Shown in pieces: positions 34,468 to 36,682 of a DNA stretch of 64,000 bases; the first letter of the stretch is position 1; each line of letters opens with the position of its first letter. A program made the position numbers and the translations under genes. Below the pieces are notes generated by a model. That model worked only from the letters and a program-made list of their open reading frames with translations. It made no database searches and was not told the DNA's origin. Source of the DNA: Chloroflexota bacterium (lineage in GTDB: Bacteria > Chloroflexota > Chloroflexia > Chloroflexales > Herpetosiphonaceae). Where the stretch lies: positions 62,001 through 126,000 of the forward strand of contig JAIUOC010000004.1 in assembly GCA_020161265.1 (NCBI GenBank). Direction: 5' to 3'.

Positions 34468-35013
34468 TTATTGACCAGCCAGCAGCAAACGGGCTAAGCG
34501 CTCACCACCAACCAAATCGGCCAAGTGCGACAATTGATTATCTTCGTAGGCTTGATTAAAGAGGGCAACATCGAGGGCTAACACCTTGCGAAATGCCGTC
34601 ATAGCCTTGGCGGGGTCGCTACTGGTGGCAGCAACTTGCTCACCAAACGGCATAATCACATCGAGCATGGCCAAAGGATAACGCACAGGCAAGCCAATCC
34701 GCACATGAATTTCGCCAATTTTCAAACGTTGTTGCGCATAGGCTTCATCATAATTGCCGCGAAACAGATCGCTAAACCACATACCAAGCATCCCGGTTAA
34801 GCGTTCGACCGACACCCCATCGAGATATTCGGCAGTGGCGGCGTGCCCCAACAAGCGTTTGTAAAAAGCATCGGTGAAGGCGGTGGTTTGTGCTTTAGCG
34901 CCATCGTGCAAACTGCCAAGTAATTGCGCTTCAGCAGCCGAAACATCCATCATTTTTACCAACTCGGTCAGAATGGCGGTTCCCTTCACGCTCCAACTTT
35001 GACGATCTGCCAT
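34468..35013 (-). CDS. Protoglobin (single-domain heme sensor globin)
   Basis: 181 residues of protoglobin type. The predicted proximal heme ligand is His103 in KIGEIHVRIGLPVRYPLAML, the family's hallmark. Protoglobins bind O2, CO and NO; single-domain forms act as gas sensors or scavengers. No output domain is fused. AAGGAGG fixes the start. It is the last gene of an operon with DUF4388, a small GTPase and a roadblock protein, so it may supply a redox or O2 signal to that switch. Confidence 0.88.
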   Translation of the reverse strand: MADRQSWSVKGTAILTELVKMMDVSAAEAQLLGSLHDGAKAQTTAFTDAFYKRLLGHAATAEYLDGVSVERLTGMLGMWFSDLFRGNYDEAYAQQRLKIGEIHVRIGLPVRYPLAMLDVIMPFGEQVAATSSDPAKAMTAFRKVLALDVALFNQAYEDNQLSHLADLVGGERLARLLLAGQ

Positions 35014-35029
35014 GAGCTACCTCCTTGAA

Positions 35030-35407
35030 TTAAGCGGTCATCAGTTCGGCGATGGCCCGACCTGTTTCACGAGCTTCAATCCGAATCATGCCCAAATTGG
35101 CGTGTTGGCGCAGAATAATTGCTAGAATCATCTGAGCAGCCACCGGCATAACCAAGAGATAGCCACTTTCGGCATTGACAATTGCCTCATTGGCTTTACC
35201 AATTTTCAAATCGTTGACCACGCGGGTGGTAACCCCCATCATGGTTGCGGCAATTGCGCCCATGCGGTCGGCATTCACATCCGCCGACATCCGTGAGCCA
35301 ATTAAAATCCCATCGGAGCTAATCAATGCAGCCCCGTTAATATCATTACCGTTATTTGTGACAAGTTGGCCTAAAATAGTATTAATTTGTTCCGAACGAC
35401 TAGCCAT
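35030..35407 (-). CDS. Roadblock/LC7 domain protein (MglB-like)
   Basis: 125 residues of roadblock/LC7 fold: GAALISSDGILIGSRM, followed by ATMMGVTTRVVNDL and LLVMPVAAQMILAIILR. In Myxococcus MglB, this fold is the GTPase-activating protein of MglA. The ATG overlaps the GTPase stop by 8 bases and AAGGAG lies upstream, so the two are translated together, as expected for a GTPase and its roadblock partner. Confidence 0.88.
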   Translation of the reverse strand: MASRSEQINTILGQLVTNNGNDINGAALISSDGILIGSRMSADVNADRMGAIAATMMGVTTRVVNDLKIGKANEAIVNAESGYLLVMPVAAQMILAIILRQHANLGMIRIEARETGRAIAELMTA

Positions 35408-35975
35408 GAGAATGCTCCTTGTTATTTTCAGAGGAGGAGGATGAATCTTGGGCTAAAACGTCGATTCGATCAAGCAAGGTACTGATCACATCGCTCACTG
35501 AGGGGTAATCGGTGGCAACGCAAGCGAGGATCGGAATATCGGTTGGTAGTCCCAAGCGGCGGCGAATATACATTGGCGGCAAGGCCCCGGGTAAATCTTG
35601 TTTTGTGGCGGCAACCACAAATGGCACAGGGGTCATCTCCGCAAAACGTTCCAACACCACAATCGTCTCGTTAAAATGGGCAGGTCGGCAACTATCAACT
35701 AAAACAATATAGCCCAAACAACCTTCGGCTAAAATTTCCCACATAAAATCAAAACGTTCTTGACCTGGCGTGCCAAATAAGAGCAAGCGTTGTTCGGCAT
35801 CAATGCTCAAGGTGCCGAAATCCAAACCAACGGTTGTATGATGTTTGAGTTCTTTCTCCTCGGCGTGGGTCACGGGAACATCAGTATCGACCACATCGAT
35901 TTCACTGACGGTACGAATAAATTGCGATTTACCCGCCGCGTATGCTCCCGTGATCACAATTTTATAATTGACCAT
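35400..35975 (-). CDS. MglA/Ras-like small GTPase
   Basis: 191 residues. G1 GAYAAGKS is at 10-17, the switch I region reads TTVGLDFG (47-54), G3 is FGTPGQE (67-73) with Gly in place of the usual Asp of DxxG but retaining the catalytic-type Gln, and G4 is TKQD (124-127). The missing G3 Asp and the T-x-PGQ-like G3 are shared with MglA-group GTPases. It should cycle between GTP and GDP states with its roadblock partner. The C-terminus is a flexible Ser-rich tail. AGGAG supports 35975 as start. Confidence 0.88.
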   Translation of the reverse strand: MVNYKIVITGAYAAGKSQFIRTVSEIDVVDTDVPVTHAEEKELKHHTTVGLDFGTLSIDAEQRLLLFGTPGQERFDFMWEILAEGCLGYIVLVDSCRPAHFNETIVVLERFAEMTPVPFVVAATKQDLPGALPPMYIRRRLGLPTDIPILACVATDYPSVSDVISTLLDRIDVLAQDSSSSSENNKEHSHG

Positions 35976-35983
35976 TGTCACTC

Positions 35984-36682
35984 CTACGCACTGGCGCTGG
36001 TGCGACGCAGCCGCGCTTTGATTGCTTGAACCAACCCACGCACCCGATTCTCAACCATATGCTCAGGGTTAGGAGCCATCAAAACTGGGCTAAGCGAACG
36101 CTGAGAAACAACAATCTCGCTACACACCTCCACCAAATTCAAGGCGATCAAACGATGCAGCACTTTGAGGGTTTGATCGTAATTCCAGCCTGTGGCTTCG
36201 ACGAGTTCGGCCACACTTAATTCTTGCACCAACTGGCTCAAAATGCGCCAATCTTCGATGGTTAGGGTAATATCGCTGGCTTGCCGCAACATTGGCACTA
36301 AGCGTAGGCGTGAAATTGGTTGCAGTTTGGTCGTGCCTGCCAAACGTTGCGGTTGATCACGGCGGCGCAAGCCTTCGATAATCAGCCAATCGATCGAACG
36401 TTGAATTTGCACCGACACCGACTCTTGCGGGTTGGGTGGCAAAAAGACAAATTGGGCATCATCCCAGGCCAACATATCAAACACGGCTTGTTCGCCACAC
36501 GCAACTCGTTCGTGGGCATTCTGGGTCACCACCCCTGCATTGATGATCGCACCATCGAAAAACCACAACATCGCCTTGAATGGAGCATTCGCAATCAAAA
36601 GACGACCGGTTTTGCGCCCGTGATGAAATACATGCATCAAGTCAATTAATGGCATATCAGCAAAATTACCTTCAAGCGCCAT
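35984..36682 (-). CDS. DUF4388 domain protein heading the GTPase operon
   Basis: 232 residues. The N-terminal about 105 residues, MALEGNFADMPLIDLMHVF and onward through GAIINAGVV and LAWDDAQFVFLPP, match the DUF4388 (PATAN-type) signalling domain common in response-regulator and gliding systems. The C-terminal part contains a winged-helix-like segment (VAELVEATGWNYDQTLKVLHRLIALNL). AAAGGAG fixes the start. It leads the operon DUF4388-GTPase-roadblock-protoglobin and is likely the scaffold or input/output adaptor. Confidence 0.82.
   Translation of the reverse strand: MALEGNFADMPLIDLMHVFHHGRKTGRLLIANAPFKAMLWFFDGAIINAGVVTQNAHERVACGEQAVFDMLAWDDAQFVFLPPNPQESVSVQIQRSIDWLIIEGLRRRDQPQRLAGTTKLQPISRLRLVPMLRQASDITLTIEDWRILSQLVQELSVAELVEATGWNYDQTLKVLHRLIALNLVEVCSEIVVSQRSLSPVLMAPNPEHMVENRVRGLVQAIKARLRRTSASA

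Follow-up and report, generated by a model that had tools for sequence, protein, structure and literature searches.

We report that a protoglobin gene in a 64,000-nucleotide (nt) stretch of a Chloroflexota bacterium of the Herpetosiphonaceae (contig JAIUOC010000004.1, positions 62,001 to 126,000; hereafter the window) belongs to a recurrent gene set that also encodes a small GTPase, a roadblock protein and a DUF4388 protein. We consider it probable that the globin is a stand-alone heme sensor that adjusts a PATAN-GTPase-roadblock switch, presumably in response to O2, the whole forming a conservon-like small-G-protein module. In the window the set consists of four head-to-tail open reading frames (ORFs) on the minus strand, from 36682 down to 34468:

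35984..36682, minus strand: DUF4388 (PATAN-like) protein, 232 amino acids (aa), with a DUF4388 domain (4-110), a MarR-like winged-helix region and a basic amphipathic C-terminal helix
35400..35981, minus strand: MglA-family GTPase, small and Ras-like, of the GTPGQ class (Groups 2-5), 191 aa from its likely start codon, ATG 35975
35030..35407, minus strand: roadblock/LC7 (MglB-like) protein, 125 aa, presumed GTPase-activating protein (GAP) or regulator
34468..35013, minus strand: single-domain protoglobin/sensor globin, 181 aa, with proximal His103, distal Tyr51 and a conserved C-terminal helix (160-178)

The evidence that carries this proposal is the company that the globin keeps. A globin-alignment scan of 84,980 species, the sole basis for the distribution outside Chloroflexota given here, yielded 46 loci of the globin subfamily; in 37 of them the globin has a same-strand roadblock gene no more than 1.9 kb away (within 1.5 kb in 35, and usually within 250 nt), and most of these roadblock-linked loci also have GTPase and DUF4388 genes. 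As a control we took 26 other protoglobins, from 301 sampled Chloroflexota genomes: within 1.5 kb of them there is no gene for a roadblock, GTPase or DUF4388 protein. The genome of the window itself has one protoglobin, seven roadblock domains and five DUF4388 matches, and from seven roadblock genes per 6 Mb we estimate that a random gene would fall within 2 kb of one in ~0.5% of cases. The linkage is therefore specific to the subfamily and far above chance. An earlier note on this DNA, made from the letters alone, had placed the heme protein with the GTPase/roadblock pair and had staked that coupling on conservation of the globin gene beside the GTPase in relatives; the gene is indeed conserved beside roadblock and GTPase genes.

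Three Chloroflexales families hold the gene set, in several orders: DUF4388-GTPase-roadblock-globin (Herpetosiphon, L060), roadblock-globin-DUF4388-GTPase at most Chloroflexales loci, and globin-roadblock-DUF4388-GTPase at L063, with tandem duplications at L077/L078. Reading the closest Chloroflexales GTPase clade by eye, we found the globin at 22 of ~30 loci, and at none of the five loci read in a paralog clade whose GTPases are ~50% identical. Named isolates outside Chloroflexota with the globin beside a roadblock gene include Pseudomonas citronellolis, Pseudoxanthomonas beigongshangi, Limnobaculum allomyrinae and Cerasicoccus maritimus (Verrucomicrobiota); P. citronellolis has the four genes in the exact Herpetosiphon order, with an ATGA overlap of the DUF4388 and GTPase genes and with unrelated flanks. 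The same neighborhood occurs in metagenome bins labeled Deinococcales, Halothece, Verrucomicrobia, Nevskiaceae, Chloroherpetonaceae and Anaerolineae, the phyla including Deinococcota, Cyanobacteriota and Chlorobiota; bin labels are fallible, and contig L099, labeled "Gracilibacteria", seems to be Chloroflexales DNA in the wrong bin. Two loci (L106 and L108) contain a tandem globin pair with no roadblock gene nearby and adjoin genes that look, by eye, histidine-kinase-like and CBS-domain-like.

In the window, the genes are packed as the earlier note had described: 8 nt separate the DUF4388 and GTPase genes if the GTPase starts at ATG 35975, which is preceded by AGGAG (only 2 nt if the alternative listed start, GTG 35981, is used); the GTPase and roadblock genes are coupled by an overlap of 8 nt; and 16 nt lie between the roadblock and globin genes, with AAGGAGGT preceding the globin ATG. 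Pairwise comparison with H. geysericola gave ratios of nonsynonymous to synonymous substitution rates (dN/dS) of 0.02-0.10 for all four genes, indicating purifying selection; therefore all four genes make useful proteins. The window comes from the genome of a gliding Herpetosiphon, its globin being 99% identical to that of H. aurantiacus DSM 785. The family assignments first made by eye for all four genes are borne out by Pfam.

The globin matches the Protoglobin family (PF11563) with an E-value (E) of 2.1e-29, and its closest solved relatives, also by fold comparison, are the sensor domains of GsGCS (2w31), AfGcHK and HemAT. Its His103 and Tyr51 align with residues 99 and 45 of AfGcHK, which we take to be the proximal and distal residues of that protein. 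His103, correctly recognized from the start as the histidine of the family motif, is invariant in the 49 rows of the subfamily alignment; Tyr51 is a tyrosine in 47 of the 49 and a histidine in two. The protein would be expected to bind heme and a gas ligand at the His103/Tyr51 site, the diatomic ligand most likely being O2. Beyond the globin core the subfamily shares a tail, NQxYExxQLxHLxxLVGxERLARRLL, whose cross-phylum conservation (0.82 for residues 160-179) is close to that of the heme-binding F helix (0.83; core, 0.62). AlphaFold2 (AF2), run on a relative, extends the final helix of the globin into this tail as one long helix, with falling confidence. Because matches to solved sensor domains end at about residue 161 of the window globin, the tail is a marker of the subfamily and a natural docking candidate, and it may serve as a docking element. 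A plasmid search for this globin returned only remote globins (<31% identity), and a literature lead to the Tlr1989 globin (PDB 8h17) yielded nothing.

The GTPase has the P-loop GAYAAGKS, a TTV switch I (HTTVGLDFG), the G3 motif FGTPGQE and the G4 motif TKQD; it matches Arf/Ras in Pfam and MglA in the PDB (E = 8.6e-7), and a GTPase tree also underlies its assignment to the MglA family. Five groups of MglA GTPases are distinguished: Group 1 (MglA, SofG) combines TVPGQ with an arginine finger beside the G2 threonine; Groups 2-5 have GTPGQ and a threonine in place of the arginine, Groups 2 and 3 also having a deviant G4; and the bacterial distribution of Group 5 includes Chloroflexi (Wuichet and Sogaard-Andersen, PMC4316618). 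The motif that the earlier note read "as in the MglA group" is present, but FGTPGQ, with threonine for arginine, is the signature of Groups 2-5 and not that of the motility-type Group 1. As TKQD is the canonical [NT]KxD G4 of Group 5, the protein most resembles that group by motif, a tentative assignment. A CvnD-like Group 2 identity of the globin-bearing GTPase was set aside, G4 being TKQD rather than NxFD. Members of this globin subfamily stand beside a Group 1 MglA (TVPGQ, arginine finger; E = 1e-59 against solved MglA) in Anaerolineae and Chloroherpetonaceae, with DUF4388-roadblock fusions and extra roadblocks (L122, L128, L130 and L132); Anaerolineae globin loci also carry response regulators, one with a roadblock domain. 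This globin thus occurs with MglA GTPases of two kinds, and its commonest partner is the roadblock protein.

The roadblock protein matches Robl_LC7 (E = 1.7e-11), and Foldseek aligned an AF2 model of a relative to MglB and archaeal roadblock structures with TM-scores of up to 0.95 by target; with its GTPase-coupled gene, it is a roadblock/LC7 (MglB-like) protein and presumably the GAP or regulator of the GTPase. In the genome of the window, a 306-aa frame (C7:313976-314296; L085:6815-7732) matches a degenerate GTPase (weak match, 24% identity) followed by a roadblock domain, possibly a GTPase-roadblock fusion.

The DUF4388 protein matches PF14332 with E = 3.1e-18 (66.4 bits against a cut-off of 25). 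It also matches MarR_2 in Pfam (E = 0.006), and its alignment profile matches ZitR/MarR winged helices of the PDB (best E = 3.4e-5, profile positions 133-225); the basic amphipathic C-terminal helix is kept across phyla in the alignment. An 82-aa ORF just ahead of the Limnobaculum GTPase gene (L135:4301-4546) has a similar C-terminal helix (GILSALFRRLY). A natural DUF4388-GTPase fusion of 426 aa (L065:13807-15084; L094:902-2179) lies beside a roadblock gene, ~4-5 kb from an unfused four-gene set, and DUF4388-roadblock fusions occur at L122 and L130; these fusions support a tie of DUF4388 to both partners. When the DUF4388 and GTPase frames were read through the natural stop and modeled as one chain, AF2 returned a predicted TM-score (pTM) of 0.79, which appears higher than expected of two independent domains, with ~40 disordered residues and the C-terminal helix lacking a confident placement. 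A Foldseek search with this model was dominated by small GTPases and retrieved nothing on DUF4388. These results uphold the membership of DUF4388 in the module; the adaptor role proposed for it in the earlier note we retain as a possible step of the model below.

In our model, a diatomic ligand, most likely O2, would be bound by the protoglobin at its His103/Tyr51 heme site; the ligand state would alter the extended C-terminal helix, which would act in trans, either on the roadblock protein by itself or on a roadblock/GTPase/DUF4388 complex, and thereby set the GTP/GDP balance of the GTPase; and the DUF4388-winged-helix protein, docked on the GTPase, would serve as adaptor or effector and relay the output to a further target. 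In this model the action of the globin on the roadblock protein, its direction and the eventual output are inferred, as are heme and O2 binding. Several observations weigh against this model. No roadblock gene is near six subfamily globins for which 3 kb or more of flanking sequence is available (three of the nine roadblock-free loci are cut by contig ends), and the globin is missing at 8 of the ~30 Chloroflexales loci with the closest GTPases. At L054:8254-8373 (minus strand; genome G246), all that is left of the globin, between the roadblock and DUF4388 genes, is a degenerate C-terminal fragment lacking a start codon, SLDVAIFKQSYDDNQLTHLAELGGGERMARRQLAGI, a trace of globin gene loss. Given the unlinked copies, the globin-free GTPase loci and this remnant, the globin is dispensable in places. 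The pTM of the DUF4388-GTPase chain is an indirect guide to contact; and for roadblock and globin, modeled as one copy each by in-frame read-through of natural stops, AF2 gave a pTM of 0.65, a value that says nothing either way about an interface because both proteins are probably dimers.

The unlinked copies, together with the fact that single-domain protoglobins can stand alone, would also suit a globin that is an O2- or NO-handling enzyme and merely shares the operon, sending no signal to the GTPase. We find this quite improbable: the linkage survives changes of gene order and spans several phyla, yet is absent from the other protoglobins; the C-terminal tail, which lies outside the globin core, is strongly conserved; and a globin-roadblock fusion is known elsewhere (HGbRL). 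The earlier note proposed that O2 or NO, sensed by the heme protein, drives a GTPase polarity switch in a gliding filament, and the reading can be widened to an MglA-like GTPase that sets gliding or pilus polarity according to the state of the globin. The window GTPase does share a superfamily with MglA/MglB, a true Group 1 MglA stands beside the same globin in Anaerolineae and Chloroherpetonaceae, and in L. allomyrinae (L135, 24-8769) the GTPase, several roadblock genes and the globin lie within a Tad pilus cluster (T2SSF, prepilin peptidase, TadE, TadF), a setting that points to pili as the output there. We nevertheless judge the polarity switch unlikely for the window operon: its GTPase is of the GTPGQ type and lacks the Group 1 arginine; its immediate neighbors include no motility gene and none that hints at a target; and in P. 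citronellolis the operon stands alone, between unrelated flanks. Moreover, a second locus of the Herpetosiphon genome (C3:562241-564245) is of the Group 1 MglA type, with an MglA gene at C3:562619-563182 (RTLFFD, YTVPGQ), two roadblock genes, a DUF4388 gene and no protoglobin; if Herpetosiphon glides by an MglA, this protein is the likelier first candidate. The module also occurs in organisms not known to us as gliders. Coupling between the heme protein and a small GTPase is much better supported than could be seen from the letters alone; the gliding-polarity reading we regard as unsupported.

It is possible, though on balance doubtful, that the operon serves O2-responsive control of transcription, the MarR-like winged helix of the DUF4388 protein binding DNA upon release from, or binding to, the GTPase. 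The MarR/ZitR-like profile match speaks for it, as do Group 3 MglA operons, which encode a conserved protein, predicted to be receiver-like at its N-terminus and to bear a winged helix, and proposed as a regulator of transcription (PMC4316618), and gene expression under Cvn8 control (PMC13343842); the putative recognition helix, however, is not basic by eye (e.g., PPDQAIRTVAELMSIGLVEI), and winged helices frequently bind protein. For the heme-sensor module that we favor, transcription via the winged helix and surface appendages would both be live candidate outputs. On a wider claim we are evenly poised: that heme-gated GTPases are widespread and partly horizontally spread, a trans-acting protoglobin with a dedicated docking helix directly controlling Ras-like GTPases that are regulated by roadblock proteins and belong to two or more MglA groups, in a gas-sensing small-G-protein pathway.

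Little is known of what feeds into bacterial Ras-like GTPases, beyond two-component and chemosensory proteins and, in conservons, sensor kinases accompanied by accessory proteins of the GAF or P450 kind. Our analysis suggests that oxygen or a comparable gas may set a small-G-protein switch in bacteria. If so, a gas-sensing globin would be a defined and easily measured input for the GTPase/roadblock pairs with which it travels in several phyla; the MglA-family GTPases of groups other than Group 1 would gain a testable stimulus; and small GTPases would join the outputs of globin sensors, for which the HGbRL fusion is the only prior report that we found.

Each known system shares part of this design. 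The globin-coupled sensors HemAT, AfGcHK and GsGCS have the protoglobin-family fold and proximal histidine (and, in AfGcHK, the distal tyrosine), but in them the globin is fused to a methyl-accepting chemotaxis protein, kinase or cyclase, whereas here it stands alone with a short conserved tail. The MglA/MglB polarity system likewise pairs a small GTPase with a roadblock GAP; it differs in its Group 1 GTPase (TVPGQ, arginine finger), its lack of a globin and its demonstrated control of motility. PATAN-MglA-MglB gene neighborhoods were reportedly described by Makarova in 2006. DUF4388/PATAN genes occur near MglA Groups 1 and 5 and MglB (Wuichet 2014, PMC4316618), and the main text of that survey, unlike the present case, mentions no globin. 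HGbRL of Methylacidiphilum (PMC4476040) couples a heme globin to a roadblock/LC7 domain and is proposed to relay the ligand state; its globin, however, is flavohemoglobin-like (VsHb/HMP), fused in cis and reported only in Methylacidiphilum, whereas the module described here has a protoglobin-family protein in trans, with a GTPase and DUF4388, in several phyla. HGbRL is the closest precedent, unrelated and independent: in the open-access literature searched, its paper is the only one found to mention a globin-coupled sensor together with a roadblock, or a globin together with MglB, and we found there no paper combining protoglobin and roadblock, most subscription papers lying outside the search.

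The nearest functional analogue, as we read the parallel, is the conservons (CvnA-D with CvnE/F), in which the accessory proteins CvnF (GAF) and CvnE (P450) are suggested to be sensors (PMC13343842). Conservons differ in having a histidine-kinase sensor, a Group 2 GTPase with a deviant G4 and no globin, and they are restricted to Actinomycetota; among the four genes of our operon and the immediate neighbors tested there is no kinase gene, and so no CvnA as in a conservon (AGPS). The module is best read as a putative globin counterpart of the actinobacterial conservons.
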